Source: Bacteroidaceae bacterium (GTDB lineage: Bacteria > Bacteroidota > Bacteroidia > Bacteroidales > Bacteroidaceae). From it: DNA of 64,000 bases. The translations under genes were made by a program, and so were the position numbers. The DNA is taken from assembly GCA_017615835.1 (NCBI GenBank), contig JAFZZI010000015.1, positions 26,359-90,358 on the forward strand, written 5' to 3'. Of the stretch, positions 9,355 to 44,172 are shown piece by piece. Each line of letters starts with the position of its first letter. Positions within the stretch are counted from its first letter, which is position 1. The notes beneath the pieces are model-generated. The model saw only the letters and a program-made list of their open reading frames with translations. It was not told the DNA's origin and did no database searches.

Positions 9355-9378
9355 AGGTTAACAATTTGTGGTTGTCTG

Positions 9379-9410
9379 CAAATATACTTCAACGCACGAT
9401 GACAAGCAAA
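9379..9410 (-). promoter_or_regulatory. Promoter of the C69 dipeptidase gene
   Basis: Minus-strand TTTG (9410-9407), 20-bp spacer, TATATTTG (9386-9379). Confidence 0.75.
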
Positions 9411-9551
9411 GAGTGAGCAAAAAAAACAAAAAAGTGAACATCCGTTTTAACTAGTGAAGATTAATGCTATATAAGGAGAGAAGGATAACAATAGACGATA
9501 TAAACAGACATTATAGCACGAACCTATCAACATACTAATTAATAGAGTTTT

Positions 9552-10529: not shown

Positions 10530-10572
10530 CCGACGCACGACAGATAATCATTCTTAAATTCCACTTAAATAT

Positions 10573-10609
10573 TTCGGCTGAATTCTGTAATTTTGCGAGT
10601 TCAGCCGAA
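10573..10609 (+). promoter_or_regulatory. uvrB promoter flanked by a perfect 10-bp inverted repeat
   Basis: TAATTTTG (10588-10595) is a consensus -7 element, with TTA at 10565-10567 as a weak -33. It lies between TTCGGCTGAA (10573-10582) and its exact reverse complement TTCAGCCGAA (10600-10609). The arms fall on either side of the -7 box, as an operator would. Confidence 0.6.
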
Positions 10610-10616
10610 TGTTTTT

Positions 10617-12656: not shown

Positions 12657-13477
12657 AGATAATGGATAGATTTTATTCGGGTAAGGTGGTTATTATCACT
12701 GGTGCCACATCGGGGATAGGATTGGCGACTGCAAGAGAATTCGCTTCACACAAGTCGAAATTGGTTCTGGCGGCCCGCTCCGAGGACAAGTTGAAGTCAA
12801 TAACAGAAGAGTTGTCGCAAAAGACTGAAGCAATATGCGTCAGGACAGACGTATCAATAGCAGAAGACTGCCGCAGGCTTGTAGAAACTGCCGTAGCCAA
12901 GTTCGGCAGGATTGACATACTTGTAAACAATGCAGGCATTTCCATGAGGGCGCTATTCAAAGACCTTGACCTTGAAGTCATAAAAAAACTAATGGATGTA
13001 AATTTCTGGGGAACTGTCTATTGTACCAAGTATGCTCTTCCCTACCTTCTCGAGTCTAAAGGATCGATAGTCGGCGTCATTTCGACAGCTGGCTTTAAAG
13101 GGCTTCCCGCACGCACAGGTTACTCCGCGTCAAAGTTTGCCGTACACGGTTTCCTTGATACCTTACGTATAGAAAATCTGCACACTGGCATCCATGTCCT
13201 GGTATTCGCTCCTGGGTTCACCGCCTCAAACATACGTAAGACGGCATTAACTGCAGACGGCAGTCAACAAGGCGAAACACCCCGAAACGAAGGCAAGATG
13301 ATGTCTGCAGAGAGAGTGGCTCGAATAATGCTCCGCAGTATACGTCTGCGGCGTAACAAAGTCATCCTCACACCAATCAGTAAAACATTGATAGCCCTAA
13401 CTCGTATAATGCCCAGGATAACTGACCGTATCGAGTACCGCTACATGGCCCGCGAACCGGACAGTCCGTTTAAGTAA
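12653..13477 (+). CDS. Short-chain dehydrogenase/reductase
   Basis: 274 residues, classical SDR: cofactor motif TGATSGIG, NNAG, catalytic Ser in ISTAG and YSASK (Tyr and Lys). D62 in VRTDVS and the basic residue after the second strand (AARSEDK) suggest NADP(H). Substrate is unknown. It starts within an ATGA overlap with uvrB, so it is translationally coupled, but no functional link to repair is evident. Confidence 0.85.
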   Translation: MKIMDRFYSGKVVIITGATSGIGLATAREFASHKSKLVLAARSEDKLKSITEELSQKTEAICVRTDVSIAEDCRRLVETAVAKFGRIDILVNNAGISMRALFKDLDLEVIKKLMDVNFWGTVYCTKYALPYLLESKGSIVGVISTAGFKGLPARTGYSASKFAVHGFLDTLRIENLHTGIHVLVFAPGFTASNIRKTALTADGSQQGETPRNEGKMMSAERVARIMLRSIRLRRNKVILTPISKTLIALTRIMPRITDRIEYRYMAREPDSPFK

Positions 13478-13502
13478 AGCAACCGGCATATCAACACTTG
13501 AG

Positions 13503-14810
13503 TTACCAATTATATGTAAAGTTAAGCGTCAGGAATTCCTTGAACTGATGGTGGCGATAATAGACTACCGGATCAACGCTGTCATCATAGCGCCAATGTA
13601 TAAACAGCTGAACAGAAAAATACTTGTTGAGGACTAAATCCAGCGTATTCTCAAGGTTGGACTGCACTGTATGGTAACTTGTGAAGAACTGTGCCTTACC
13701 CGTCCATTTAAGGTTCTTGAAGAAAGTCCATTTCCAGTTCACTTCTATGCGTGATCCTACCGAATGCATGAACTTCTTGCCCTCTTCTATACCAAATTTG
13801 GGGGCAAGTTCAATTTCAGACACATATCTGCAATCGTATGCAAGAGGAGAAAGCTGTGCTGACAACGTGACATTTTTGTTCTTCAGTGACGGTTTGTAGT
13901 CCATACCGACAGATATGGAACCATATCCGGGAGCCATGAACTTAGACTTAAGTCTGGAATTATCGTCATATACATCCATAAACTGTGTATACGCCTGAAT
14001 CTGAGCAGAATAGTACCATGATTTTGCAGCTTTATAGCCGACCTTGCTGGTAATTCGAAGAAGATCCTGGTTCGTCTTGAACACGGTTTCGTTATCCTTT
14101 TCAGTAGTGTAATATCCCAGTTTTGCCTCAAGTTTGTTATCCCATGTAAAATTGAATTTTGCATAGTTAGCCTCCTGTACAAGTTGGACGAGCAACGAAT
14201 GATTACTCTCTCCCCCCTTATACCAGTTTTCCGAAAAGAAAGTCTGGGTATATTTGAGCATTATCGAACCCGGCATCTTCCAGAATGATGGCTTGTTTAT
14301 TACCAGATCAGGTGCCTGTGCATCATGAATCTCCACAATTCCGACTTCAGGCACTATCCTCACACCGGCACTTTCATCCAGAGTGACCGGACCGGTCACG
14401 CTCATCAACTCATTTTCTGTCATCTCTATCAATTCCGGATGTTCCAAATAGACTCTCAGCAATGTTCTGTTGATATTATCGGAAAGCGAAAGTTCCTCGT
14501 CACTCTTTTTCATGTATATTGGCAACAGTCTGTCATACGGCCTCACATCTGATGTGTCAGGATGAAAACTAATAGCCTCATTATATAGCGCAAGTGGCAT
14601 AAACAGCTTGAAGTACAGAGGGTTGTCACTGATTTCCTCAACAGAAGCTCCAACCTCTGCGGCATATTCCATGACAAGTGAGTCAAGCTTTGCGCTATAT
14701 TTGGCTGTAAGCGTAGAATCAACCTTAAGTGAGTCGTATATGCTCTCTGCAGGTAATCTCACAGCAAAAGTCGTCAGAATGGTCAGTAATAACAAAAGAT
14801 TCCGTTTCAT
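13503..14810 (-). CDS. DUF3078 outer-membrane beta-barrel protein
   Basis: 435 residues with a signal peptide (LLLLLTILTTFAVRLPAES). An alpha-rich N-terminal third is followed by alternating polar/hydrophobic strands typical of a small barrel, ending in an aromatic (TFNFTYNW). The segment W.KGG.SN.SLL is characteristic of DUF3078. The family is restricted to Bacteroidota and has no known function. It is divergently transcribed from yidC and carries its own -7 element TAAATTTG at 14843-14836. Confidence 0.8.
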   Translation of the reverse strand: MKRNLLLLLTILTTFAVRLPAESIYDSLKVDSTLTAKYSAKLDSLVMEYAAEVGASVEEISDNPLYFKLFMPLALYNEAISFHPDTSDVRPYDRLLPIYMKKSDEELSLSDNINRTLLRVYLEHPELIEMTENELMSVTGPVTLDESAGVRIVPEVGIVEIHDAQAPDLVINKPSFWKMPGSIMLKYTQTFFSENWYKGGESNHSLLVQLVQEANYAKFNFTWDNKLEAKLGYYTTEKDNETVFKTNQDLLRITSKVGYKAAKSWYYSAQIQAYTQFMDVYDDNSRLKSKFMAPGYGSISVGMDYKPSLKNKNVTLSAQLSPLAYDCRYVSEIELAPKFGIEEGKKFMHSVGSRIEVNWKWTFFKNLKWTGKAQFFTSYHTVQSNLENTLDLVLNKYFSVQLFIHWRYDDSVDPVVYYRHHQFKEFLTLNFTYNW

Positions 14811-29360: not shown

Positions 29361-30926
29361 TCACTCGACCTCGAGGGTGATAATGCTCAATGCCGGCATG
29401 GTCAGAGTAATCGAACCATCCTTGGCAATCTTGGCACCCTTATACTCCTTAAGGGTGACCTTATTGGGATTATCAAAGCTGTTGTAGTCATTGATTGCTC
29501 CTGAGGTGAGAATCTGACCTGTAACCTTCTTTGCACTGAAGTCGTTAAGATTGACAGTAACCTCCTGTTCCTCATCAGCATCAACATTCGACAGAGAAAC
29601 GTGTATCTTACCATCAGCTGCTTTCGAAGCTGTAGCGCTCATAAGCGGCAGAGGACGGTTAGCACCTTCGGCGGGATTATTCTTGAAACGCTCGTTGCGA
29701 ACCAGCTTGACAGCGCAACCGTCAACGGTAGTGGCAAGCGACTTCGCGTCCTGATGCGGTATGTACATCTTGTACACATAATACGTTGGAGTCAGAACCA
29801 TCTTATCGTCCTTTGTCAGAACCATCGACTGTAAAACATTGGCTACCTGAGCGATATTGGTCATCTGGATGCGGTCGGCATATTTATGAAATACATCAAG
29901 CGAGAGCGATGCAACAAAGGCATCACGCATCGTATTCTGCTGAAAAAGTTGTGTACCAGGCTCGGAATCCCACCATGTACCCCATTCATCCACATATAGC
30001 GGAATTCGGTGGTTTGGATCAGCCTTGCTCATTATGTCCAAATGCTTCTGAATGACCGGCTCGATACCAAGCGCCTTGCCAAGACACCAATAATAGTCAT
30101 CCTTGCTGAAATTGGTGGCAGAACCTTTGCTTCCATCCCATCCGGCTACCGTGTAGTAATGAAGAGACACAGCGTTCATCTGACTGCCGATGCGATCCAT
30201 AAGGACTTCGGTCCACTCATAATCGTAGTCGCTCGCTCCACTGGCAATCTTGACTATATGAGTGCCGTTGTAATCACGCATATAGGTCTGATATCTGCGG
30301 AATATATCAGAATAATATTCTGGGCGCATATTGCCGCCACATCCCCATGCTTCGTTGCCGACACCTATATAACGTACGTGCCATGGCTCCTCACGACCAT
30401 TCTGCTTGCGGATTTTAGCCATCGGGCCATCTGCTGCATTCATGTACTCGACCCACTTGGCAGCCTCCTCAACAGAGCCACTGCCAACATTCATGCTGAT
30501 ATACGGTTCAATATTCAGCATCTCGCACAAGTTAAGAAACTCATGAGTGCCGAAGCTGTTGTCCTCTACTATACCGCCCCAATTATTGTTAACCATTCGG
30601 GGACGGTTCTCCTTTGGACCGATGCCGTCCATCCAGTGGTACTCGTCTGCAAAGCAGCCGCCAGGCCAACGCATGAGAGGTACATGCAGTTCCCTAAGAG
30701 CGTTCAGGACATCATTTCTGTAACCGTTGGTATTGGGAATAGAAGATTCAGGGCCTACCCAAAGACCACCATATATGCATGTTCCCAGGTGCTCGGAGAA
30801 CTGGCCGTAGATGTTCTTGTTGATAGTGGCACCGGGCTTGCCAGCCTGAACATTTACCGTCACACTCTGCTTGGCACTAGTCGTGACACTGAGTGCAAGC
30901 GCTACAAATAGAAGGACTTTTCTCAT
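29361..30926 (-). CDS. Alpha-L-arabinofuranosidase, GH51, secreted
   Basis: 521 residues with a signal peptide ending SAK. GH51 hallmarks are IYGQFSEHLG, MRWPGGCFADEYHW, GVGNEAWGCGG (Glu acid/base) and LYVDEWGTWW (Glu nucleophile), followed by the C-terminal beta-sandwich. It removes terminal arabinofuranose from arabinan, arabinoxylan or arabino-xyloglucan. It is next to, but transcribed separately from, the GH95-GH43 operon, and its promoter uses the stem of that operon's terminator. Confidence 0.94.
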   Translation of the reverse strand: MRKVLLFVALALSVTTSAKQSVTVNVQAGKPGATINKNIYGQFSEHLGTCIYGGLWVGPESSIPNTNGYRNDVLNALRELHVPLMRWPGGCFADEYHWMDGIGPKENRPRMVNNNWGGIVEDNSFGTHEFLNLCEMLNIEPYISMNVGSGSVEEAAKWVEYMNAADGPMAKIRKQNGREEPWHVRYIGVGNEAWGCGGNMRPEYYSDIFRRYQTYMRDYNGTHIVKIASGASDYDYEWTEVLMDRIGSQMNAVSLHYYTVAGWDGSKGSATNFSKDDYYWCLGKALGIEPVIQKHLDIMSKADPNHRIPLYVDEWGTWWDSEPGTQLFQQNTMRDAFVASLSLDVFHKYADRIQMTNIAQVANVLQSMVLTKDDKMVLTPTYYVYKMYIPHQDAKSLATTVDGCAVKLVRNERFKNNPAEGANRPLPLMSATASKAADGKIHVSLSNVDADEEQEVTVNLNDFSAKKVTGQILTSGAINDYNSFDNPNKVTLKEYKGAKIAKDGSITLTMPALSIITLEVE

Positions 30927-31052: not shown

Positions 31053-32501
31053 TCAATGATTTCTGAAGTTCCACTTGTAATTGTCGCTGCTGAAGTCGAA
31101 CTTGCCAAGTGAGGGAGTACTGTCACCCGAAGACATCAGTACAAGTTCTTCATCGCAACCGGGAACCTCCTTAGGCATAATTCTGTATGTACCATCTGTA
31201 AGCTGCTCTATGCGCCAGAGCTGCTCAGCAGCACCGGTATACTGAGGAACGGTTATTACCTCACGGTCGGCAGTTGCTGCCAGAGCTCTCTTGGTGCCGG
31301 CGATAGTAATCTTATAGTACTGACCGCCAAGATAACCTCCCGCCTCGGGAACTGCGGTAACAGTCCATTTCTGGTGTGGACGGAACATGTAGTCGCCTAT
31401 GCGGACATCAATGTTGTCTTTCGGCCACTTCTCATATACATCAATGAGCGACTGCTCTTCAATAGCCTGCGGACCAGCTGTTGCGCCACCGCCGAACATT
31501 CCGCGTCCACCCTGCTGACGGACGAAGTCAACGGCAAGCTCAAGGGCATAGCCTCTACGCTCCGACTCAATCTCATATGTACCCTCCTTGAAGAGTTCAC
31601 CGGCGTATGGCCAGTCGTTCTTCCAGAGAAGAGGACGTATGGCAAGAACACTGCGTCCACCCTGATCATAGTCGGCCTCCCAGTGGAAGGACATCTTCTC
31701 GACGCCCTCCTCTTCAACATATCGGCCAAAGTGACCGGCACCGGTCTTCCTGTCACCAGCAGCAATAACCATCCTGCCGCCGCCCTTCAGCATGTCACGT
31801 CCGACGTTATCAAGATACGGGCCCAGGACGTTTCTTGAACGGCCAACCACTATGTTATAGGTGGAGTTTACACCATCGCAGCATGTTCCGTGAGTTCCGA
31901 GCAGATAGTACCAACCGTTGCGGTAGATAAGTGCAGAAGCCTCACAGTCAATGGCAATATCCTTGGCTACGTTACCCTTAACGCGTTCTCCGGTCTTGGG
32001 GTCAATCTCAACAATACGGATGAAACCATAATATGTACCATAGGATACCCACATACGGCCAGTAGTCGGATCCAGAAGAACCGATGGATCAATAGCATCG
32101 CAGTCTTCATCAATCTCTGACGAGGCAATCTCGACAGCCTCAGTAAACTTGAAGTCAGGCGACTGCGGATCTAAAGTAGTATTCCACATTGTATTGATTC
32201 GGCCTGCATGTCCACCGCCAAGTCCACCGCCAGTTGAACCGTAAACGATAAGGTAACGGTCGCCAACCTTCATCGCATCGGGAGCGGCACCGCCGCCGGG
32301 ACGCTGAGCCCCACTGTGCCAGTTCCAGCCGTCCTCCGAAATAAGGCCGCCGCCACCTGTGCCGAAAGTATAATACTTACCGTCGCATTTGACGATAGTT
32401 GACGGGTCATGAATAAAAGGCTGACCCACTTGTGCGTTTGAATTCAGTGTGAAAACTGAGAGAAGGGCTGCAATACCCAATATTGTATTCTGTCTTTTCA
32501 T
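31053..32501 (-). CDS. GH43 family glycoside hydrolase (arabinanase-like), secreted
   Basis: 482 residues with a signal peptide ending SNAQ. The five-bladed propeller carries all three GH43 acids: HDPST (Asp base), DAIDPSVLLD (Asp) and DCEASALIY (Glu acid). Sequence layout is that of endo-1,5-alpha-L-arabinanases. Residues about 345-482 form an added beta-rich domain, with a Gly/Gln insert (QQGGRGMFGGGATAG) near the boundary. It is the last gene of the eight-gene operon beginning with GH95. Confidence 0.88.
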   Translation of the reverse strand: MKRQNTILGIAALLSVFTLNSNAQVGQPFIHDPSTIVKCDGKYYTFGTGGGGLISEDGWNWHSGAQRPGGGAAPDAMKVGDRYLIVYGSTGGGLGGGHAGRINTMWNTTLDPQSPDFKFTEAVEIASSEIDEDCDAIDPSVLLDPTTGRMWVSYGTYYGFIRIVEIDPKTGERVKGNVAKDIAIDCEASALIYRNGWYYLLGTHGTCCDGVNSTYNIVVGRSRNVLGPYLDNVGRDMLKGGGRMVIAAGDRKTGAGHFGRYVEEEGVEKMSFHWEADYDQGGRSVLAIRPLLWKNDWPYAGELFKEGTYEIESERRGYALELAVDFVRQQGGRGMFGGGATAGPQAIEEQSLIDVYEKWPKDNIDVRIGDYMFRPHQKWTVTAVPEAGGYLGGQYYKITIAGTKRALAATADREVITVPQYTGAAEQLWRIEQLTDGTYRIMPKEVPGCDEELVLMSSGDSTPSLGKFDFSSDNYKWNFRNH

Positions 32502-32513
32502 ATCACTCAGTCA

Positions 32514-33368
32514 TTATTCGTTAGTAATAGTCATATTCTTAACAGGGTTTCCGTTCTCGTCAATAAAACGGACACAGAAGTCACTCATTCCAGGGCCATT
32601 GATAACAGCACCACGAAGAACGTTCTTGCCCTTCTTCAGAGTGAGACGCTTTGATGTGGCATCATCAGCAACCATGCGGCGGTCGCCTGAAAGTATGACA
32701 GCCTCCTCACCGTTCAGCCACCACATTGAAGCGGAGTTTGAACCGACGGCCAGGCGTATGTTCTCAATGTCCTCATCACAATTGATTACAGTAACGGCCC
32801 AGAACAGTATACCATAGCGGTCTGAGTTCTCAAGACTGGTTGCGAAGCGGAACAGCTTAGTGTTGTACAGCTTGCTGTCAAGCGCATGCCATTTGAGGTC
32901 TTTGCCATCAACCTTGACAACATCTCCGTCGCGTGGAATAAGAGTCATCTGGTTGGGGAAATATTGCATACCGAACTGTTCGCGAATATAGCTGTCAACG
33001 AACGGCGTGTTGCTGTTACGTATGGTTGACTTGGTAATAGGTTCCAGCAGCAGCCAACGACGGATGAATCCTTCGCTGTCAGGAGCCATAGGCTTCTTGG
33101 TCGAGGGAGAGAAATAAGGTGTAATGTCTGTCGGTTCGAAAGTCACCGGCTGACGCGCACCAAAACCACCCTGGGGACGTGCCTGCTGTCCACCTTGAGG
33201 ACCTCCCTGAGGAGCCTGACCTTGAAATGCCGGACGAGCCTGCTGGGCACCCTGTGGTGCACCCTGTGGTCCCTGTCCCCCACCGGGGAACTGTGCAAAC
33301 GCATTCTGGCAGAGCCCAAAGGATAGCAGAACGCTCATTGCGAAGATTAAATTACGTTTGTTTGTCAT
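32514..33368 (-). CDS. Secreted protein with Pro/Gln/Gly-rich linker and putative sugar-binding domain
   Basis: 284 residues. A signal peptide ends AFAQ; about 55 residues of PQG, QQARP and QGG repeats follow; then a beta-rich domain (about 75-284) with FWAVTVINCDEDIENIRLAVGSN-like strands, MWWLNGE, and KKGKNVLRGAVINGPG. That domain pattern resembles jelly-roll modules attached to Bacteroidota acetylxylan esterases, but no catalytic residues are evident. I infer carbohydrate binding from context: it is 12 bases upstream of GH43 and in the same operon. Confidence 0.6.
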   Translation of the reverse strand: MTNKRNLIFAMSVLLSFGLCQNAFAQFPGGGQGPQGAPQGAQQARPAFQGQAPQGGPQGGQQARPQGGFGARQPVTFEPTDITPYFSPSTKKPMAPDSEGFIRRWLLLEPITKSTIRNSNTPFVDSYIREQFGMQYFPNQMTLIPRDGDVVKVDGKDLKWHALDSKLYNTKLFRFATSLENSDRYGILFWAVTVINCDEDIENIRLAVGSNSASMWWLNGEEAVILSGDRRMVADDATSKRLTLKKGKNVLRGAVINGPGMSDFCVRFIDENGNPVKNMTITNE

Positions 33369-33401
33369 AGAAAAACAGTTAAAAAAAATTAGTGAATAAA
33401 A

Positions 33402-34421
33402 TCATTCAAAAGACACGAGAAGCCGGAAGACCCTGCCGGGCTCCGAATCCCACTGTTTCATGGCATCAAATGCCTGCTCAGGTTTTACGATGCCGCTGAT
33501 AAGGCTGTCTACCGGTATGTTTCCGGTCTGAAGTAACCGTATGACCGCACGAAAATCCTCTGGCATCGCATTACGCGAACCACGGATGTCAAGTTCCTTC
33601 TGGACAAACAGGCGCGTCTGGAATGATACATCATTCTTTGAGTAGCCAATGCAGACTACACGTCCTGTAAAACCGACAATGTCAACAGCAGTAACATATG
33701 TTGCGGGACTGCCCACCGCTTCGATAACAACATCGGCACCATACTGATTAGTCAATTGGCCGACTATAGCACGGACATCCTCCTCACGACTGTCTATATA
33801 GCGACATGCGCCTGCCTTTATGGCTAAATCGCGTTTATCTTTGCCCAAATCGACGGCAACGACTGATGCTCCCCGGTGAGAGGCGCGCATTACTGCACCC
33901 AATCCCACCATTCCACAGCCGATGACCACAACAGTATCGGTATCCGAAACATCTCCGCGTGACACAGCATGGAACCCGACACTCATAGGTTCGATTATTG
34001 CAGCTTCGCGGGCTGAAATGCTGCCTACAGGAATAACCTTCTGCCAAGGTAAGGATATATACTCGCGCATCGCACCATCACGCTGCACTCCAAGTGTCTC
34101 GTTGTGCTGACAGGCATTGGGACGACCATTGCGACACGATAAACAGACACCACATGCAGTATAGGGATTGACTGTTACGGTCTGGCCGATGCAGAAGCCG
34201 TCAGGACAGCCCTCTCCGATGGCACAGACCTCTGCACCTATCTCATGACCTGGTATGACTTCGGGCTTAGCCATTGCGTTAAGACCACGGAACGTATTCA
34301 GATCACTTCCGCAGAAACCGACGAAGTGATTTTTCAGCATAAGTTCTCCAGGTGCAGGCTCAGGCATCGGGAGACTTATGACGTCCATCTGACGGACTCC
34401 GGGAATTCTTATAGCTTTCAT
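33402..34421 (-). CDS. Zinc-dependent alcohol dehydrogenase (MDR superfamily)
   Basis: 339 residues. It has catalytic zinc ligands in GFCGSD and GHEIGAE, the structural-zinc cluster CGVCLSCRNGRPNAC, and the Rossmann motif GCGMVGLG followed by VAVDLGKDK (Asp favours NAD). It is closest in layout to sorbitol, threonine and galactitol-type dehydrogenases. Being in the fucose/galactose operon, a sugar-acid dehydrogenase role (for example on L-fuconate or a keto-deoxy acid) is plausible but inferred. Its ATG is one base after the amidohydrolase stop. Confidence 0.85.
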   Translation of the reverse strand: MKAIRIPGVRQMDVISLPMPEPAPGELMLKNHFVGFCGSDLNTFRGLNAMAKPEVIPGHEIGAEVCAIGEGCPDGFCIGQTVTVNPYTACGVCLSCRNGRPNACQHNETLGVQRDGAMREYISLPWQKVIPVGSISAREAAIIEPMSVGFHAVSRGDVSDTDTVVVIGCGMVGLGAVMRASHRGASVVAVDLGKDKRDLAIKAGACRYIDSREEDVRAIVGQLTNQYGADVVIEAVGSPATYVTAVDIVGFTGRVVCIGYSKNDVSFQTRLFVQKELDIRGSRNAMPEDFRAVIRLLQTGNIPVDSLISGIVKPEQAFDAMKQWDSEPGRVFRLLVSFE

Positions 34422-34422
34422 C

Positions 34423-35322
34423 TCACTCAGACATATTTTTAATGTAAGGAAGTTCCGTCAGATCCGTCAACCCGTAAAAACGCATTGCATTCTCTCCAAG
34501 GAACATTCTTTTTTCCGACTCGTCAAATACTGCCGACTTCTGCACAAAATCATATGACATCCTGTAAGTTATAGCAGTTATCGTACGGGGGTAGTCGGAA
34601 CCCCACATAAGTTTGTCCATCCCCACGGTATCAGCAGCAACACGAATAGCCCTGATTGCCGACGGGAATGGATAAAACTCCGAATTATATAGCCAGGTAA
34701 TGCCCCCAGCCTCAATATAGACCATTTCGGCCAACGAAAGTTTAATCTGGTCCAACCAATATTTACCTTTGGCCATACCGAAATGGCCGATTGCAATCTT
34801 CAGTCTGGGACAACGTGATATTACATTTTCCATCTGTCTGATCTGTTCAAGGCTGTCGGCCAGACAAACAGATGCAACCAGACCACGCGATTCAGCCTCA
34901 ATGAAGAACTCCATCCATTCAGGGCTGTCAAGAGCTGTATTAAGGCGATGTGCCGGCAAGGCAACGCCCTTAAATCCCATGTCAGCCAAAACACCGGCCT
35001 GACCTGCTGGAGAAATATTAAAGTCAGGCATGCCACAGCAGAAGAACCGCTTGGGGAATTTTTTCTGCACTTCCAGCAAATAACTGTTCTGGTTGCCGTC
35101 TATGATTTCCTGAACGACTACTGCAGCCGACACCTGAGCATAATCCATGTTCGAAACGAAAACCTCAGCGCTGTTGCGGCCGTCAATCATGAACGGTGGA
35201 AGCATCTGTCTTTCCTCGCCAAAGAACATTGCCCTTCCGTTAGGCATCTGGGTGATATTCTGCCCGTCAACTACAGCTTTTTGGGTCAGCCAAAGATGAG
35301 AATGTGCATCAACTAATATCAT
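34423..35322 (-). CDS. Amidohydrolase-family lactonase (L-fuconolactonase-like)
   Basis: 299 residues, amidohydrolase-2 TIM barrel. It has the metal-binding DAHSHLW (HxH), IGHFGMAKG (His) and GSDYP (Asp). COG3618-type enzymes open 1,4- or 1,5-lactones of L-fuconate, L-rhamnonate or L-galactonate. The next gene upstream, five bases away, is a sugar dehydrogenase expected to make just such a lactone, which supports the assignment. Other amidohydrolase substrates remain possible. Confidence 0.78.
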   Translation of the reverse strand: MILVDAHSHLWLTQKAVVDGQNITQMPNGRAMFFGEERQMLPPFMIDGRNSAEVFVSNMDYAQVSAAVVVQEIIDGNQNSYLLEVQKKFPKRFFCCGMPDFNISPAGQAGVLADMGFKGVALPAHRLNTALDSPEWMEFFIEAESRGLVASVCLADSLEQIRQMENVISRCPRLKIAIGHFGMAKGKYWLDQIKLSLAEMVYIEAGGITWLYNSEFYPFPSAIRAIRVAADTVGMDKLMWGSDYPRTITAITYRMSYDFVQKSAVFDESEKRMFLGENAMRFYGLTDLTELPYIKNMSE

Positions 35323-35327
35323 TAATC

Positions 35328-36260
35328 TTACGAATTCTTCCAGCTTGTACGGAAAGCGTCTCCAATAATACTGTGCACATCACCCACAAGTTTCTCAGGG
35401 AAACTCTCTGATATTGCACTGATATTGGCCAAAACATTCTCCGGACGAGTTGTAGAAAACAGATTCGAAGAAATGCGCTGATTGGAAACCGAATACTGCA
35501 TGGCAAGCTTTTCTATCGGATAATTCTGTAACTTGCAATACTCCACTGCTCTGCGGCAGGCAGCCTGAAGATTCTGAGGTGCCGGATGCCAGTCAGGAGC
35601 TCCCCTTTCGGAGAGGAGCCCCATAGACAATGGACTGGCATTTATCACGCCTATTCCCCGCTGCTCAAAAAAATCCAGGAAATCAACAAGTCTGTCATCG
35701 CAAAGACAGTAGTGGCAGAAGTTCAACACCGATTCGACTGTTCCCTCAGGAGTATTCTCAACCACCCACTTCAGGTTCTCCAATTGGAGATCTGTAATGC
35801 CGACATGTCCTACATATCCTTTGTCCCTGAGTTCGCAAAGTGCAGGAAGAGTCTCTTCTGCCACTTGATGAAGGTCCGAGAACTCAATATCATGGACATT
35901 GATGATGTCGATGTAATCCACACCCAAACGTTCCATACTTTCGAACACGCTGTCGTGTGCCCTCTTACCACTATAGTCCCAGGTATTGACGCCATCGTGA
36001 CCATACCTGCCAACCTTTGTGGAAAGAATATATTTGTCTCGAGGTATTTCACGAAGTGCCTTTCCAAGCACATTCTCAGCCTTCAGATATCCATAGTAAG
36101 GCGAGACATCAATGAAGTTGATGCCGTTGTCCACAGCTGTATGTACAGCCTTGATACCGTCAATCTCCTTCAGGCCATGGAATACCCCGCCGAGGCTTGA
36201 CGCCCCAAAACCAAGAGCAGACAGTTTCAGGCCGGTCTTACCAAGTTCCCGGTATTCCAT
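35328..36260 (-). CDS. Aldo-keto reductase, L-galactose/L-fucose dehydrogenase type
   Basis: 310 residues from ATG 36260 (MEYRELGKTGLKLS), one base after the FAS1 gene stop. AKR tetrad: Asp and Tyr in IDVSPYYG, Lys in STKVGRYG, His in NVHDIEF. The segments NFCHYCLCDD, INASPLSMGLL and PDWHPAP closely parallel plant L-galactose dehydrogenase, which oxidises C1 of L-galactose to the lactone. L-fucose is 6-deoxy-L-galactose, so it is a natural substrate candidate. A longer frame to 36317 would overlap the FAS1 gene. Confidence 0.85.
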   Translation of the reverse strand: MEYRELGKTGLKLSALGFGASSLGGVFHGLKEIDGIKAVHTAVDNGINFIDVSPYYGYLKAENVLGKALREIPRDKYILSTKVGRYGHDGVNTWDYSGKRAHDSVFESMERLGVDYIDIINVHDIEFSDLHQVAEETLPALCELRDKGYVGHVGITDLQLENLKWVVENTPEGTVESVLNFCHYCLCDDRLVDFLDFFEQRGIGVINASPLSMGLLSERGAPDWHPAPQNLQAACRRAVEYCKLQNYPIEKLAMQYSVSNQRISSNLFSTTRPENVLANISAISESFPEKLVGDVHSIIGDAFRTSWKNS

Positions 36261-36261
36261 C

Positions 36262-38247
36262 CTACCACTTGTCTTCACCTTCGTCGCTGGCATACACATC
36301 TTTGGGAACCAGCTCAAGGTAATCGTAAACCATCTCTGCGTTGTCGTTGTCCAGAAGCTGACGTACTCTCAGATAGTAATCACCTTCTGCATACATATAT
36401 TGCGTAGTTAGAATTCGACGCAGCATAGAATTCAGATCGCGGAACACATCACCACCTGAGGGACGGTAAGATGCCGGGGCCTTCATATATCCACGGTTAC
36501 GCATTGCCTTGTCGAGCAGGCGGATTGCCATTTCGTCCTCAAGATCCGAATCCTTTATCCATCCAATCTTCGGATCCGGTCCACTGATAGTCATATCAGT
36601 AGGAATGTCAGTCGGAGACATATCAGTCGGGTCGCTTCCGAAATAAGCCTGGATTGTACCTCGTGAGGCCATCACAGGATAACCGATACGGATTTCGTAT
36701 GTTCCGTCATAAGGAACAGGCGGCAGATGCATGGTGCAGTCGTATATACCCTGAAGAATAACCTCATCACCTTCATAGCTCCAGAACCACTGGTGACGGT
36801 TGCGGACCGAACACAACGTCTCTTTAGTGAACCTCCAGTTCTTTGTATATCCGTCGAGCATTCCGGTGCACTGGTCCGTACCGGGACGGTTACGGCCGCC
36901 GCTGTTCACGAAATCGGGTGACAGTGTCGTGCAGTCATATCTTATCCTCGTCTTGAGAGCACCGTTACGTACCTCCTTACTGTAAACCAGCATATCGTCA
37001 ATATAGTAGTACATACCATTCAGAGCATCCTGAATGACAGGAGTACCATCCGCATACTTCATGTCAGAAGGAGCGACCATCAGGACGCCACGGTACTCAT
37101 TCTGCTTGGGGGTACCCTTGCGGTTGATGTAAATTCCGCTGGGACTTGCATTCAACGGGGTACATACACGTATGAAGGAATGAGGCATCATTGTCTCGAA
37201 AAAGTCCTCAAGATCCCACTCTTCACGAATGAAGTTCGTATTTACAAGATCCTCGTTGGTAACATTCCACTGGTCATAATTCTCATAATACTCAAGCATG
37301 TGATACGACACGAAACGGTTGAGCGGGTTACGGCGATCTGTAGGTTCGTCGTCATACAGGCCGGCGTCAAGCGGATACGATTCGTCATATACCTCTTTGG
37401 CATATCTTTTCAGGTCTTCCAGATTTTTGATACCGTGTGCTCTCATAACAGAGTTAGGTTCTACGAACATTGTATATTTAAAATACCTGTTCTCGGGGAA
37501 GATGGCATACTCGTACTCGTTTCCTGTATGATATTTTACACCAGTGGTAATGGAATCGTAACTTGGAGTCGGATATGTATCGTCCTTGTACTTGACGAGC
37601 GAGTCGCAGAGTCTGGTCTCAATCAATGCGCTGTAAAATATCGAGACAGCTGTATCGCCCTTGATAAGATCCGGCAGCATCTGAGTACTCGGAACTATAA
37701 CACTATTCACAATCTGAATAACGCCATTCTGGACAGTATCATCCCTCTCAAGAATCCTGGATGTCTTGTTCACCATATAATATATCCTTCCCGAGACGGA
37801 ATCGGAATCACAAGTGAATGCAAGATAACGGTCCAACCTGTTGGGGCTGGGGAATGCTCCTTCAACAAGGTCTGTAGTGTAATAACACCTGTCAAGAAGG
37901 TGAGTCCTTGCTATTGTGTCACACTCCTTGAAAGTCAGGCTGTCCAATGTGTACCTATCCCTCTTTTTCTCTATCCTCTTCTCCTCAAGGAAATCATTGA
38001 ACGCATCGTTTGTAGGTGCGAAACAAGTGTAGGTTCCGTAAGTCTGCAGTTCCCCCCAAAGCTCAGCACGTTGCAGGACCTCGATGAACATACTGAAGTC
38101 GCTCTTGTTCTTCTCAAGGAAAGAAGCGATGTTGTCATCCAGAAAAGTGTAATAAGTCTCAGGTGCCTGTTCCCTCAGACAAGACACAACGGATGCTGAC
38201 ACAGCCAGTGCCAACACTGCTTTTTTGAATTTGTTTGCAAATCTCAT
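36262..38247 (-). CDS. Fasciclin (FAS1) domain lipoprotein
   Basis: 661 residues. The signal ends VVSC, so it is a lipoprotein, probably surface-exposed or outer-membrane-facing. The first FAS1 domain (about 30-200) has TYTCFAPTNDAFNDFL and VNSVIVPS. A second, more diverged one follows (about 200-440), then a beta-rich C-terminal region. Such proteins accompany SusC/SusD pairs in Bacteroidota and probably bind glycan or matrix, but no SusC/D is in this window. It is 24 bases downstream of GH31. Confidence 0.82.
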   Translation of the reverse strand: MRFANKFKKAVLALAVSASVVSCLREQAPETYYTFLDDNIASFLEKNKSDFSMFIEVLQRAELWGELQTYGTYTCFAPTNDAFNDFLEEKRIEKKRDRYTLDSLTFKECDTIARTHLLDRCYYTTDLVEGAFPSPNRLDRYLAFTCDSDSVSGRIYYMVNKTSRILERDDTVQNGVIQIVNSVIVPSTQMLPDLIKGDTAVSIFYSALIETRLCDSLVKYKDDTYPTPSYDSITTGVKYHTGNEYEYAIFPENRYFKYTMFVEPNSVMRAHGIKNLEDLKRYAKEVYDESYPLDAGLYDDEPTDRRNPLNRFVSYHMLEYYENYDQWNVTNEDLVNTNFIREEWDLEDFFETMMPHSFIRVCTPLNASPSGIYINRKGTPKQNEYRGVLMVAPSDMKYADGTPVIQDALNGMYYYIDDMLVYSKEVRNGALKTRIRYDCTTLSPDFVNSGGRNRPGTDQCTGMLDGYTKNWRFTKETLCSVRNRHQWFWSYEGDEVILQGIYDCTMHLPPVPYDGTYEIRIGYPVMASRGTIQAYFGSDPTDMSPTDIPTDMTISGPDPKIGWIKDSDLEDEMAIRLLDKAMRNRGYMKAPASYRPSGGDVFRDLNSMLRRILTTQYMYAEGDYYLRVRQLLDNDNAEMVYDYLELVPKDVYASDEGEDKW

Positions 38248-38271
38248 AAGTAAAACACTATTTATTGATGA

Positions 38272-40512
38272 TTATTTTCTTGTAAACACCGGAATTGTCT
38301 CCAAAGATACCTCTGCATCTATATACTGTCCTCCTTCGTAATGTCTGCCACTCCAGAAGTCATCCCATCCTCCTTCATTGGTCGGAAGATAGACACGAAT
38401 ACTTGAAACATTCTCTTCAAGCACGGGACAGACAAGATACCTGGGACCAAACATGAACTGAGTCTCCTGAAGCAGAGCCTCCTTGTCATCCGAAAAGTCA
38501 AACAGCATCGGCCTCATTAGTGTATAGCCTTCATCCGACACCTTGTCTGCACATTCCAATATATAAGGCATCATCTTGTATCTCAACTTGATAAAATCGG
38601 TTATAATGCGCAGAGTCTCAGAATCATATCGCCACGGCTCAGTCTGGCTCATATAGCCGTGGACACGCATGAACGGGAGGAATGCAGCAACTTGAACCCA
38701 ACGTATAAGGCGTTCCTGATACGCAGCATTGGTATACTGGTCGCCAGGACGGAAAAATCCACCGGCATCGAAGGTCCACCACGGAAGTCCCGCAGACATC
38801 TGACCCAAGCCTCCGACAATCTGCCTCCGCAAAGTTTCAAAATCATTTCCTACATCGCCCGACCAGGTGACTACCCCATACTTCTGCATGCCCGAGAAGG
38901 CGCTGCGCGTCAGAATAACAGGTTCCTCACCGCTCTTTACACTCTTCAAGCCACCATACATCGTACGGTTCACCATCAGAGGATACACATTGCGATAGAA
39001 ATCACCGGGCAAAGAGTCACTGCCAATACGTCGGCCGTGAAGGTCATCATTTTCCGGTTCAGTTGCATCAAACCACCATGCATCTATATTGAAACGCACC
39101 AGACTATCCAAAAAATTCCGAACGTAGAAATCCCTTGCGTCCGGTTTGAAGAAATCTATCCAGTCAGTACCATCTATGTAAAAACCTCTCCGGTCAAGTG
39201 ACCGACCCAATACAGACGGTTTGTCAACTTTCGACCAGACAGAGAGCATCAGGTGAATATCGTCAGCATGCAGGGAATCTGTAAGGGCAGCGGGATCTGG
39301 ATAACGGTCTTCGTCAAAGCGCATGGCATTCCAGCCATACTTGCCCCACCACTGCCAATCCTGGACAATGACGCTAAGTGGAATGCCACGCTGCCGGAAC
39401 CCCCTGACATTATCAAGAATTTCCTGCTGTGTATTGTAACGCTCACGGCAGTGAATGTAGCCAAACATCCATTCCGGCATATGGGGAACAGCGCCGGTCA
39501 ACTTACGGTAAGTCCCTATCACATCATCCGCCTTGCCGGCAAAAACAGTATAGTCCAGTGCTGTAGCGACCGGAGAGCTGAAAGTAGTTGACTCATCCAC
39601 CCTGCGCCAATAAACCAAAGGACGATCGCCCATCGAACCCTTAACCTCGATTTTATGTCTCCCTGCCTTGAGTTCAACAATGGTTGAAGATGTTGGAGGC
39701 AACCATGTATTGCTGGCATCAATGTAAACGACACTATCTATTGCCAAATAGTGTCTGCGCCCCATAGACTGACCCACATCAAGCATCAAAGCGTATCTGC
39801 CATCAGCAGGGACAGTCAGATTTCCCTCAAAATTGCCAAAACTGCGGCGCTCCCGGCGGTTGCCTAGCGTACCTGTCGCATTTACCGTCACTGAACCACC
39901 GTCGGCAGATCCGGCAGTAAGCTGTAAGAAATTGTCTGCAGGGTTGAAATCCGTCAGGCCATAATTATTCCATAGTATTCCATACCCCATGTCAGAAAGA
40001 ATCATCGGTATGGATATCTGCGTATTTACCTGGGTCAGACGCCTTGTCAGACCGTTCAGATTAAGATAACCATCCTGAAACTGTCCGGTGCCACATAAGA
40101 ACTCATCGGGGGAAGTATTGAAAGACTCCCTTACACTGACACAAGGCACTCCATCCACATCGCCTGCAGAAATAGAACGGCTTTTCTCTGTCAAAAACAA
40201 ATGACCGTCTGCATCAATGAATGAAAGGCGATCAGTTTTGGAATCATAACGGACTGTCATGGATTTCAGTTCAAGCACCGTTTCATCCTCATTACGCTCA
40301 AGTTTGTACTTTGGAGCCGCTACCCTTTCCGTGTAGACAAGTTCTTCCAGTCGCGGCAATTCCCCCTGGCCGGAAATGCGTACACGCACAGCATTGTCAG
40401 CCAAAGGAATCAGTTCCAGTTTTCCGTCTGCAGTATCAATGAAAACCCTTCTTCCGCTGCAAGAAAACATGAACAGTGCCGAAACAGACAGTGCAAGCAG
40501 TATCGATCTCAT
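38272..40512 (-). CDS. GH31 alpha-xylosidase-like enzyme with PA14 insert, lipoprotein
   Basis: 746 residues with a lipobox MFSC. N-terminal beta-sandwich (to about 210), a PA14-like insert (about 220-320; DGRYALMLDVG, LKAGRHKIEVKG), and the GH31 barrel. The catalytic nucleophile is Asp in WWFDATEPEN and the acid is Asp in WSGDVGND. A PA14 insert at this place is the hallmark of Cellvibrio Xyl31A, an alpha-xylosidase for large xyloglucan oligosaccharides. Its GH95 neighbour (stop four bases upstream) would remove fucosyl or galactosyl residues from the same side chains. Confidence 0.88.
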   Translation of the reverse strand: MRSILLALSVSALFMFSCSGRRVFIDTADGKLELIPLADNAVRVRISGQGELPRLEELVYTERVAAPKYKLERNEDETVLELKSMTVRYDSKTDRLSFIDADGHLFLTEKSRSISAGDVDGVPCVSVRESFNTSPDEFLCGTGQFQDGYLNLNGLTRRLTQVNTQISIPMILSDMGYGILWNNYGLTDFNPADNFLQLTAGSADGGSVTVNATGTLGNRRERRSFGNFEGNLTVPADGRYALMLDVGQSMGRRHYLAIDSVVYIDASNTWLPPTSSTIVELKAGRHKIEVKGSMGDRPLVYWRRVDESTTFSSPVATALDYTVFAGKADDVIGTYRKLTGAVPHMPEWMFGYIHCRERYNTQQEILDNVRGFRQRGIPLSVIVQDWQWWGKYGWNAMRFDEDRYPDPAALTDSLHADDIHLMLSVWSKVDKPSVLGRSLDRRGFYIDGTDWIDFFKPDARDFYVRNFLDSLVRFNIDAWWFDATEPENDDLHGRRIGSDSLPGDFYRNVYPLMVNRTMYGGLKSVKSGEEPVILTRSAFSGMQKYGVVTWSGDVGNDFETLRRQIVGGLGQMSAGLPWWTFDAGGFFRPGDQYTNAAYQERLIRWVQVAAFLPFMRVHGYMSQTEPWRYDSETLRIITDFIKLRYKMMPYILECADKVSDEGYTLMRPMLFDFSDDKEALLQETQFMFGPRYLVCPVLEENVSSIRVYLPTNEGGWDDFWSGRHYEGGQYIDAEVSLETIPVFTRK

Positions 40513-40516
40513 AAGA

Positions 40517-42988
40517 TTATTCAGCAGTTAATGTGTATGTTTTACCTGCGGTTGTATTGACGTCGTACTCATAGCAGTTTGTGGCACTTGCCCCCGAATA
40601 GCCGTATGCAGGAGCCAGAAGACTGTTCGGGCAAGGTCCTTCGGCTTTCTTGAGCCCCTTCAGCGGGACACTCGAACGGATTCTCAAAGGTCCGCCTATT
40701 GTTGACTTGACCCTTGCAGACACAAGTCTGCCGTCTTTCCAATCCATGTCAACTATGAAACCGCCACGTGCCCTCAGGCCATTTACACTTCCGTCGGCCC
40801 AAACATCCGGCAGAGCCGGAAGCAGATGCACAGCGCCATCCTGACTCTGAAGCAACATTTCTGCTATACCTGCGGCACAACCGAAATTACCGTCAATCTG
40901 AAACGGAGGATGTGCATCGAACAGATTCGGGTAGGTACGGCCATTAGGATTATATCTTCCGCGCTGGCCGTTTGCGCCAGGCCCATCGGGAAGCAGGCGC
41001 ATCATATTGCTCAGAATCGTATAGGCATGATTGCCGTCATGCATTCTGGCCCAGAAATTGACCTTCCAACCCAGACTCCAGCCGGTTGCCATATCACCCC
41101 TCTGAATCAAAGTATTGCGGGCACCCTCAAAAAGTTGAGGCGTTGAATACTCGCTGATCTGATTGGAAGGATAGAGACCGTAGAGATGTGAAATGTGTCG
41201 ATGCTCGTCCTTTGGATCATCCAGATCCTCTATCCACTCCTGAAGTTGACCATATTGACCGACCTTCATCGGCGGTATCCTGGAAATAGCGCCTTTCAAT
41301 GATTCCCGGAAATCGGAATCGACATCCAGGATCTCGGAAGCTAACACAACGCTAGTCAATGCATCGAACACTATCTGGTTATCCATAGTGCAACCTGCCG
41401 TAACAGTAGACCGTTTGCCTACACCTCCATGCTCGGGGCTGACAGACGGAGCAACCACAAGATAGCCGTTGTTCGGATCTGTAACCATGAAATCCATATA
41501 GAACTCGGCTGCGCCCTTCAGCACCGGATACCACTCCTTAAGAAAGTCTTTGTCGCCTGTGAACAGGTAATGCTGCCAAAGATGTGTGGCAAGCCAGGCA
41601 CCTCCATTCACGTACATTCCCCATGTGGCACCGTCAACCGGTCCGGACGAGCGCCAGATATCTGTATTGTGATGAGCAACCCATCCATTGCACCCATACA
41701 TCACGCGTGCCGTCTCGGCACCATTGACCGTCAAGTCGCGAATCATAGAAAACAATGGCTCCACGCACTCTGTAAGACCTGACACCTCAGCCGGCCAATA
41801 GTTCATTTGAGCATTGATATTGATAGTGTACTTGGCATCCCATGGTGCGTCACGCTGGTTGTTCCATACACCTTGAAGGTTGGCAGCCTGTCCACCTGGC
41901 TGTGAGGAACTTATCAGAAGGAAACGGCCATAATTGAACATCAGCGCAGCCATTCCGTAATCGTCACTTCCATAGCAGGCATCAAGCCTCTTGTCGGTAG
42001 GAAGGACGCTGTTTGCGCCGTCGCTCAGATGAAGTGATACTCTGCCATACTGGGCAGAATATGCATCCACATGACGTTTGAGAAGCTTGGCAAACTTCAT
42101 TCCCCTGACAGCCCTCAGGGTCTCGTCGTTGCACTTGGCCGCATCACCGGAAACATCCTTGAAATTGACAAAATTGGTTGCAGAAGTAATCAGAAGCGTA
42201 GCGTTCGAAGCATTTGAAACTGTTATCCTGTCACTTCCTGAAGCAATCTGACCGTCTGACAGCACCACTATCCTGCACTCAGCGTTGAGGGCAGATTTAA
42301 TCCCCTCGTGATCGACTCCGTTGATTTTGGCAGTCATCACATTGTCTGCACAACTGACCTCGGCACCCAAGACGCAGTCGTATGAAAGCGTGAAGTTCAA
42401 AGCACCCTTCCTGTCGGCCTCCATACGCTCAACAACCACCTTGTCTGGAATTGAAGCGAACGCCCTGCGGATGTAAGTTACACCACCCGATTTGTAAGAA
42501 GTTGTATTAACGGCATTGACAAGATTCAGCTCACGGCGGTAATCCTCCACCTCACCTATTCCGTCGAAATCAATGAAAAGACTGCCGAGTGTCAGATACT
42601 TCATTCCGTGAGGACCGACTATGAAGTCCCTGTTGATAATATCCTCTGCCTCCCTTTCCTTTCCTTCGAAAATCAGTTGTCTCACTTCGTCCAGGCGTGA
42701 CAGAGAGCGTTCACTGTTATTGTTGTGAGGACCGCCGCTCCAGAACGTCTCATCATTGAGTTGTATCTCCTCGCGAACCGTACCGCCATAAACCATAGCG
42801 CCCATCTTCGAGTTTCCGATGGGAAGCGACTGAAGCCACGATGCAGCAGGAGCTTCATACCAGAGAACGTTGTCTACATCTGCATTGTCCGAAACGGCTG
42901 CAGCGGAACAGGATACTGAGAGAACAGACATTACGGACAAGGCCACCATCTTTGCTATAAGGCACATAAATCGCGATTTGGACTTCAT
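40517..42988 (-). CDS. GH95 alpha-L-fucosidase / alpha-L-galactosidase, lipoprotein
   Basis: 823 residues. The signal ends SVSC. The N-terminal sandwich starts [19 protein letters not shown]...GAMVYGG, the usual GH95 opening. The (alpha/alpha)6 barrel carries [10 protein letters not shown] (Asn pair), VSPEHGG (Glu acid) and QIDGNFG (Asp). GH95 inverts alpha-1,2-linked L-fucose, and some members prefer L-galactose. It heads the operon; the -7 element TATATTTG is at 43023-43016. Confidence 0.93.
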
Positions 42989-43149: not shown

Positions 43150-44172
43150 ATGACAGGAAAAAGAAAGATCACCCCAATGATAGCGTCATTGGTCATAATT
43201 GCGCTGATGACAGGAATGACAAAATGCTTCTTGCTTCTCATGGGACGCATGAACATATCCGAAGATTTTAGAATTTTCATTACACCAACAGAAACAGCAG
43301 ACGAAGTATTGTCAGATATACGCGACAATGTAAAGGATGGAAATGTGACAGGGCTGAAATGGTGGTTAAAGCTCATGAAATATGACGGAAATGTCAGATC
43401 CGGAAGTTATGTAATCAAGAAGTATAGCCGTCCCAGAACAATCCAGACAATGCTCTCGTCAGGTTTACAGACTCCACTTAATGTTGTCGTCGGCAGTCCC
43501 CGGACAATTTACGACATGGCTGCATCCATCTCGTCACAACTGATGGCAGACTCTATGTCATTTGTTGGCTTCATGTCCGACACTACCTCCCTGCAACAGT
43601 ACGGACTTACTCCTACAACCGTATTTGAATTGATAATTCCCAACACATACCAGTTCTATTGGAACGTTTCGCCAGAAGCTTTCTTCAAGCGTATGGACAA
43701 GGAACGGAAAGAATTCTGGGAAAAAAGACAAGAGAAGACTGAATCCATCGGATTAACTCCAAGTCAGGTCATGACACTGGCATCAATCGTACAGGAAGAG
43801 ACTGCGATGGCCGACGAAATGCCCAAAGTGGCCGGATTATACATGAACAGGCTGAACAGGGGTATGCTGTTGCAGGCTGACCCGACTGTCATTTTTGCAC
43901 TTGGGGGAAAACGGCCGAAAAGAGTTCTTTTCTCCCATCTGGATGTCGATTCTCCATACAACACATACAAATATCCAGGATTGCCCCCGGCCCCCATCAG
44001 ATTTGTCAGCATAACAGCCATAGATGCAGTTCTGAACTACACCCGTCACAATTACATCTACATGTGTGCAAAGGAGGATTTCTCCGGTTATCACAATTTT
44101 GCCGTTACCTTGTCACAGCATAACGCAAATGCCGCAAGATACCAGCGGGCCCTTTCGCTTTCGGGCAGGTGA
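43150..44172 (+). CDS. mltG: Endolytic murein transglycosylase MltG
   Basis: 340 residues. One N-terminal membrane helix (about 10-30), a LysM-like region, and the YceG domain. The catalytic Glu is in SIVQEETAMADEMP, followed by the family-typical VAGLYMNRLNRGMLLQADPTVIFALG and SPYNTYKYPGLPPAPI. It cuts nascent glycan strands and sets their length. It is divergent from the GH95 operon. Confidence 0.93.
   Translation: MTGKRKITPMIASLVIIALMTGMTKCFLLLMGRMNISEDFRIFITPTETADEVLSDIRDNVKDGNVTGLKWWLKLMKYDGNVRSGSYVIKKYSRPRTIQTMLSSGLQTPLNVVVGSPRTIYDMAASISSQLMADSMSFVGFMSDTTSLQQYGLTPTTVFELIIPNTYQFYWNVSPEAFFKRMDKERKEFWEKRQEKTESIGLTPSQVMTLASIVQEETAMADEMPKVAGLYMNRLNRGMLLQADPTVIFALGGKRPKRVLFSHLDVDSPYNTYKYPGLPPAPIRFVSITAIDAVLNYTRHNYIYMCAKEDFSGYHNFAVTLSQHNANAARYQRALSLSGR

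Follow-up and report, generated by a model that had tools for sequence, protein, structure and literature searches.

Oxidation of L-galactose by Phocaeicola vulgatus is reportedly the subject of a primary paper by Hobbs et al. from 2014, and we take BVU_0220 of this organism to be the lactonase of the pathway. Its BVU_0219 and BVU_0222 are described as L-galactose and L-galactonate dehydrogenases, respectively, with D-tagaturonate as an intermediate (PMC12632266; papers given by accession number are cited throughout for the parts of their text that were available), so that an oxidative branch in Bacteroidota is already known for this sugar; an earlier note on the DNA studied here had considered such a branch unusual in one transcript with the enzyme that frees the sugar. 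With regard to its release, the GH95 enzyme BACOVA_03438 of Bacteroides ovatus (PDB 4UFC) liberated exclusively L-galactose from corn xylan (PMC4491172). In oligosaccharides of corn glucuronoarabinoxylan (GAX), alpha-L-Galp-(1,2)-beta-D-Xylp-(1,2)-alpha-L-Araf occurs as one side chain and alpha-D-Xylp as another, and GH31, GH95, GH43 and GH51 enzymes, together with GH10 and GH120, have been proposed for these side chains (PMC7176698). In corn-fibre fermentation the freed L-galactose brought no benefit, as the strain employed is unable to metabolise it (PMC7176698), and its fate in Bacteroidota after release from cereal xylan was not stated in the parts of the literature covered. Here we describe eight minus-strand genes at positions 31053-42988 of a 64,000-nucleotide stretch (the window) of a Bacteroidaceae bacterium genome (contig JAFZZI010000015.1), which encode, in transcription order, a GH95, a GH31, a fasciclin-domain (FAS1) protein, an aldo-keto reductase (AKR), an amidohydrolase, a zinc alcohol dehydrogenase, a 284-aa protein and a GH43, and which likely form an operon that frees L-galactose from cereal-type GAX and oxidises it.

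The probable L-galactose oxidation enzymes

The AKR (35328-36260, minus strand, as are the other genes of the set; Pfam Aldo_ket_red; ATG start) matched L-galactose dehydrogenases in all five of its best PDB hits (7lh6 at 485 bits, the others at 311.1, 291.8, 285.6 and 278.6), while the best AKR outside that family reached 92.5 bits, which places it by similarity in the L-galactose dehydrogenase family. The segments PDWHPAP and INASPLSMGLL, previously taken to be specific to the plant enzymes, were present without change in 46 and 52, respectively, of 75 bacterial AKRs extracted with a motif filter from 80 loci (five loci yielded none), and are thus not restricted to plants. These loci represent the best 80 of at least 574 relatives found in species genomes; neighbours were counted anywhere in the fetched locus, up to 10 kb on either side, by tblastn at 100 bits or more (60 bits for the mutarotase), and many of the loci were short or interrupted by contig ends.

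A relative of the amidohydrolase was found in 72 of the 80 AKR loci and one of the zinc dehydrogenase in 75, indicating that the three genes form a common Bacteroidales cluster, which by sequence is the L-galactose pathway known from P. vulgatus; a major facilitator superfamily (MFS) transporter accompanied the AKR in 32. The amidohydrolase of the window (34423-35322; Pfam Amidohydro_2, 123.8 bits) is a probable L-galactono-lactonase, although its best PDB match scored only 40 bits, and it did not reach the cut-off of the L-fucono-1,5-lactonase model (31 of 400 bits). The zinc dehydrogenase (33402-34421; Pfam ADH_zinc_N and ADH_N) is a probable L-galactonate 5-dehydrogenase. Tagaturonate-reductase-like (uxaB-like) genes were present in 14 of the 80 loci and altronate-dehydratase-like (uxaA-like) genes in 13. 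The two uxaB-like genes scanned, from locus L052 and from locus L107 of the congeneric genome G019, scored 628 and 423 bits and exceeded the NCBIfam tagaturonate reductase cut-off of 359, while the two uxaA-like genes scanned had the galactarate dehydratase model as their sole match, with scores under its cut-off. Tagaturonate-reductase-like neighbours fit a product oxygenated at C6 and disfavour L-fucose. The earlier note had left the substrate as fucose or L-galactose; given the AKR family, these neighbours and the grouping of the GH95 with 4UFC (see below), the L-galactose half of that proposal is favoured, and the sugar of the operon is very probably L-galactose rather than L-fucose. The proposed oxidative route, the lactonase step and the linkage to the hydrolases that would free the sugar all held up at the level of sequence evidence.

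In one locus (L052:5233-17193), genes for a GH29, a rhaM-type mutarotase, a GH31, the AKR, the lactonase, an MFS transporter and the dehydrogenase were followed by uxaB-uxaA-like genes, and similar runs were observed in L069, where the GH29 is partial, and L051; of these runs, that of L052 holds the GH31. The mutarotase of such runs may act on L-galactose.

GH95, its companions and the probable link to xylan

The GH95 (40517-42988; Pfam GH95, 589.8 bits; lipoprotein-type N-terminus by eye) had 4UFC as its best PDB match (1010.8 bits, as compared with 665.1 for the Xanthomonas xyloglucan fucosidase XacAfc95, 7KMQ). It was 57.3% identical to the aligned stretch of 4UFC, and the equivalents of Thr370, Asn372, Asn374 and Glu501 were conserved in the alignment. 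In a tree of 21 sequences, in which XacAfc95 was the only characterised fucosidase, it fell in a clade of six with 4UFC (support 100/99), nested in a clade of eight (100/100) with 7KMQ outside. The protein is thus most likely an alpha-L-galactosidase, as judged by its relatives. Four members of the clade of eight were located in their genomes: L109 surrounds the gene with SusD, a GH5-GH43 protein and a GH43; L110 with GH97, a GH43-CBM6-esterase, a GH43 and a hybrid two-component regulator; L112 with GH127, two GH43-CBM6 proteins, GH97, an esterase and a hybrid two-component regulator; and in L113 (genome G071, 8957-14253) the GH95 gene, which belongs to the wider clade, is encoded on the strand that also carries a xylose-isomerase-like gene and an FGGY kinase gene next to it.

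The GH31 (38272-40512; Pfam GH31, 275.4 bits) is probably an alpha-D-xylosidase, its best PDB matches being alpha-xylosidases (BoGH31A at 329.2 bits), with a score of 226.6 of the 606 bits of the NCBIfam alpha-xylosidase model. It had been described as carrying a PA14 domain, but no PA14 match was obtained at E<=10 (Pfam); its insert has no assigned family, and residues 198-295 gave a sub-threshold CBM_35 match (13.5 bits against a cut-off of 28). In 7 of the 80 loci (L002, L011, L012, L020, L031, L052 and L058), relatives with 52-65% identity were located next to the AKR or its cluster, in several gene orders and with different AKR lineages, the stretches of L031 and L058 lacking lactonase and dehydrogenase, while the other four GH31 matches in the 80 loci had 27-35% identity and lay on the opposite strand. 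This adjacency suggests a functional tie between this type of GH31 and the use of L-galactose. Successive action of GH95 and GH31 on a single L-Gal-alpha-Xyl chain was considered and dropped, since in corn GAX the L-galactose is on beta-xylose and the alpha-xylose on a separate side chain (PMC7176698).

The GH43, which also has a ricin-type lectin domain (31053-32501; Pfam), is probably an arabinose-side-chain hydrolase; its best PDB matches were arabinanases (129 bits), and its identity was 88% to the copies in the congeners G025 and G031 and 68% to a copy beside a GH8 gene in genome G041. The 284-aa protein (32514-33368; secretion-type N-terminus by eye) matched no Pfam family at E<=10, nothing better than E 0.079 among solved structures and only itself in the source genome. 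Its residues 78-281 matched residues 434-633 of this GH8 protein (L108:17307-19217) with 62% identity over 204 aa, in the C-terminal part of the latter, whose GH8 domain spans residues 91-304. The GH8 gene and the GH43 gene adjoining it lie approximately 3 kb from the AKR cluster of G041. The FAS1 protein (36262-38247; Pfam Fasciclin, 57.2 bits) is lipoprotein-like and perhaps has a role in glycan capture; its relatives (37-45% identity) in the congener loci L117, L118, L119 and L125 have GH8-like and GH95 genes nearby, along with an FGGY-kinase-like open reading frame (ORF), so labelled by eye from its resemblance to the scanned L113 protein. The GH95 genes seen in these four loci are of a second type, 43-47% identical to that of the window, and a recombinase-like ORF (by eye) adjoins the fasciclin gene in L117 and L118. 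GH10 matches occurred at seven places in the source genome, which by their coordinates look like five genes. Taken together, the surroundings of the GH95 relatives, the GH8-linked module and the context of the fasciclin gene point to xylan, and xyloglucan and rhamnogalacturonan II (RG-II), which the earlier note had named as sources, look less likely than GAX.

Layout and conservation of the gene set

All eight genes were open at the coordinates given above, with intergenic gaps of 4, 24, 1, 5, 1, 33 and 12 bases in transcription order, which bears out the gene order and tight spacing (1 to 33 bases) noted before; the single base between FAS1 and AKR assumes the ATG at 36260, since the TTG listed at 36317 would overlap FAS1. 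A gene for a GH51-type alpha-L-arabinofuranosidase (29361-30926; Pfam Alpha-L-AF_C, 162.5 bits) begins 126 bases downstream of the eighth gene and is probably the ninth member of the operon. Behind it lies a terminator-like hairpin of 11 pairs with a T-rich tail (29331-29306, minus strand), the scan as a whole yielding 10 such sites against a shuffle mean of 11.0, that is, no excess. Two TAnnTTTG-like candidate promoter sites were found within the 161 bases preceding the GH95 gene, and sigma-70-type sites showed no excess (18 against a shuffle mean of 19.0).

Conservation was evaluated in 81 genomes (the source genome, 36 congeners, 12 of the family and 32 of the order) with matches at E<=1e-80, which detected the AKR in 41 and a GH95 in 60. 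A GH95 of at least 80% identity was restricted to 3 of the 37 genus genomes: the source genome (G000), G025 and G031. G025 (L104) holds all eight genes, ordered as in the window, with 71-88% protein identity and no gap longer than 63 bases; shortly past the GH43 its contig stops, so that the position of GH51 falls beyond the visible stretch. The run in G031 reads GH95-GH31-284aa-GH43-esterase-GH51, with none of the FAS1, AKR, lactonase and dehydrogenase genes between the GH31 and the 284-aa gene, and ends in a GH51 gene 90% identical to that of the window. It adjoins a gene 64% identical to the window neighbour at 43150-44172, a counterpart of which was not seen on the G025 stretch; the operon copy of G025 may be at a different genomic location. 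An AKR-lactonase-MFS-dehydrogenase run lies on another contig of G031, and its AKR fell in another part of the AKR tree (85 rows; 87 loci were given, of which five yielded no AKR), in which the AKRs of the window, G025 and a horse-faeces Bacteroidales grouped together (SH-aLRT 97). Since G031 carries the hydrolase operon without the FAS1-AKR-lactonase-dehydrogenase cassette and G025 carries all eight genes, the cassette is modular, either through gain in G000 and G025 or through loss in G031. The esterase-family gene of G031 (PF00756, L105:4206-5327) lies between GH43 and GH51, and an esterase gene is likewise found in the GH95 loci L110 and L112.

Proposed pathway, rival readings and known systems

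In the pathway that we propose, GH95 would cut alpha-L-galactose from L-Gal-Xyl-Ara side chains outside the cytoplasm (N-termini were inspected by eye to judge localisation), GH31 would release alpha-D-xylose from the second unusual type of GAX side chain, and GH43 and GH51 would remove arabinose. L-Galactose, imported by a transporter encoded outside the operon, would then be oxidised by the AKR to L-galactono-lactone in the cytoplasm, the amidohydrolase would open the lactone to L-galactonate, and the zinc dehydrogenase would convert this to D-tagaturonate. In the source genome (82% complete assembly), genes for UxuA and Eda lie side by side in a kdgK-like-eda-uxuA-uxuB set, of which a short-chain dehydrogenase/reductase exceeds the D-mannonate oxidoreductase (UxuB) cut-off (368 against 281), and a PfkB-family kinase is most like 2-keto-3-deoxygluconate (KDG) kinases, yet scores below their cut-offs. 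A UxaE-family protein (172 bits, cut-off 27.1) is also present. To judge from these genes, D-tagaturonate could pass via fructuronate and mannonate to 2-keto-3-deoxy-6-phosphogluconate (KDPG), the likely continuation being a UxaE-family epimerase yielding D-fructuronate, UxuB yielding D-mannonate, UxuA yielding KDG, and KdgK and Eda yielding pyruvate and glyceraldehyde-3-phosphate. Whether the cereal-xylan alpha-L-galactosidase and the oxidising enzymes are co-expressed as a self-contained L-galactose salvage, with D-tagaturonate drained through UxaE into the fructuronate-mannonate branch and not through altronate (UxaB/UxaA), is a tentative matter: we regard it as possible, if somewhat on the doubtful side.

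Several observations weigh against release and oxidation of xylan-derived L-galactose by one operon. AKR and GH95 occurred within 10 kb of each other only in G000 and G025 (2 of 41 AKR genomes, many of the assemblies being fragmented), and the nine genes include no SusC/SusD, transporter or linked regulator (Pfam; the rest of the window and of the genome was not searched for them). The Pfam families of UxaA and UxaB gave no match in the 82% complete source genome, and the UxaE-family gene (L094:9300-10547) is preceded by genes for a different GH31 and a BNR-repeat protein, the run spanning L094:4543-10547, so that its substrate may be some other sugar acid. The GH29 (alpha-L-fucosidase family) and rhaM-type mutarotase genes found in 14 and 15, respectively, of the 80 AKR loci could point to fucose-like sugars. 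The GH95 assignment is further limited by the single characterised fucosidase in the tree and by Thr370, which is also present in a strict fucosidase (PMC8245568) and was dropped as proof of L-galactosidase activity for that reason.

The rival readings overlap, and their probabilities need not add up to a whole. L-Galactose also occurs in RG-II, and this or another L-Gal-bearing glycan, and not xylan, would be an unlikely source. A pectin-induced Segatella copri polysaccharide utilization locus (PUL) does carry a GH95 predicted to be an alpha-L-galactosidase, but another S. copri GH95 with that potential activity has been linked to xylo-oligosaccharides (PMC11784079); moreover, the nine genes include no pectic lyase, GH28, GH78 or GH106 family (Pfam), the GH95 relatives lie in GH43/GH97-type loci, and GH31, GH43, GH51 and the module shared with the GH8 protein point to xylan. 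It is very unlikely that the operon serves L-fucose from fucosylated xyloglucan, with an alpha-L-fucosidase (GH95), a xyloglucan alpha-xylosidase (GH31) and three enzymes oxidising L-fucose to L-fuconate and beyond. The GH29 genes just mentioned, the xyloglucan alpha-xylosidases among the PDB matches of the GH31 and the description of GH95 as mainly a fucosidase family (PMC7176698) favour L-fucose, against which stand the grouping of the GH95 with 4UFC and not XacAfc95, the lack of a beta-galactosidase or endo-xyloglucanase family among the nine genes (Pfam) and the amidohydrolase score far under the L-fuconolactonase cut-off. FucI, the one enzyme of the FucI-FucK-FucA pathway that was searched for, gave no match in the 82% complete source genome, in a search whose control matched E. 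coli and T. maritima and not Bacteroides ihuae; a gene of the class II aldolase family is present. C5 oxidation of L-fuconate would not yield tagaturonate, whereas uxaB-like genes accompany the AKR in 14 of the 80 loci. On this evidence L-fucose was rejected as the principal substrate.

Least probable, and likewise very unlikely, is that hydrolase and dehydrogenase genes are uncoupled, the L-galactose cassette having been inserted by chance into an arabinoxylan operon, which could overlap with the other readings. The hydrolase operon without cassette in G031, with an AKR cluster of another lineage elsewhere, is in agreement with such an event, but G025 retains the arrangement with short gaps and 71-88% identity, relatives of the GH31 are found next to the AKR or its cluster in seven loci with differing orders and AKR lineages, and the GH95 probably produces the sugar that the cassette would consume.

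The pathway and the enzyme families are already known; novelty would lie in their combination within a single operon and in the UxaE route. In the texts covered by our literature search, made mostly without subscription papers, no GH95/GH31 operon of Bacteroidota was connected with a cluster for L-galactose oxidation, and no UxaE-drained L-galactose route was encountered. The operon is thus a candidate gene set for using L-galactose that is released from cereal xylan, and proximity to an L-galactose cluster may serve as a context clue that separates L-galactosidases from fucosidases in GH95.

As regards the known systems, the P. vulgatus pathway comprises the same three enzyme types as the window, as reported or, for the lactonase, as we presume. 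The 80 loci included none from P. vulgatus, and P. plebeius (L016) was used in its place: it has the order AKR-lactonase-MFS-dehydrogenase, with 74, 59 and 61% identity of AKR, lactonase and dehydrogenase to those of the window. The window differs in that its nine genes lack the MFS transporter, its cassette is located inside a hydrolase operon, and its source genome (82% complete) has a UxaE/UxuB/UxuA set instead of UxaA and UxaB, which were not detected. PUL-XylL of B. ovatus, for complex cereal xylan, combines a GH95 of the same clade (BACOVA_03438) with GH31 (BACOVA_03422) and GH43 (PMC4491172); unlike it, the nine genes include neither SusC/SusD nor a hybrid two-component regulator, and they add enzymes of L-galactose oxidation, a catabolism not described for PUL-XylL in the available parts of that paper. 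In the lguABCDEF cluster of Luteolibacter LG18, LguA groups with BVU_0219 and plant L-galactose dehydrogenase, and, as proposed for the window, an L-galactonate dehydrogenase feeds a D-tagaturonate route; in contrast to the window, this cluster belongs to another phylum, also serves L-glucose, includes altronate and KDPG enzymes and has no hydrolase listed in its legend (PMC12632266).

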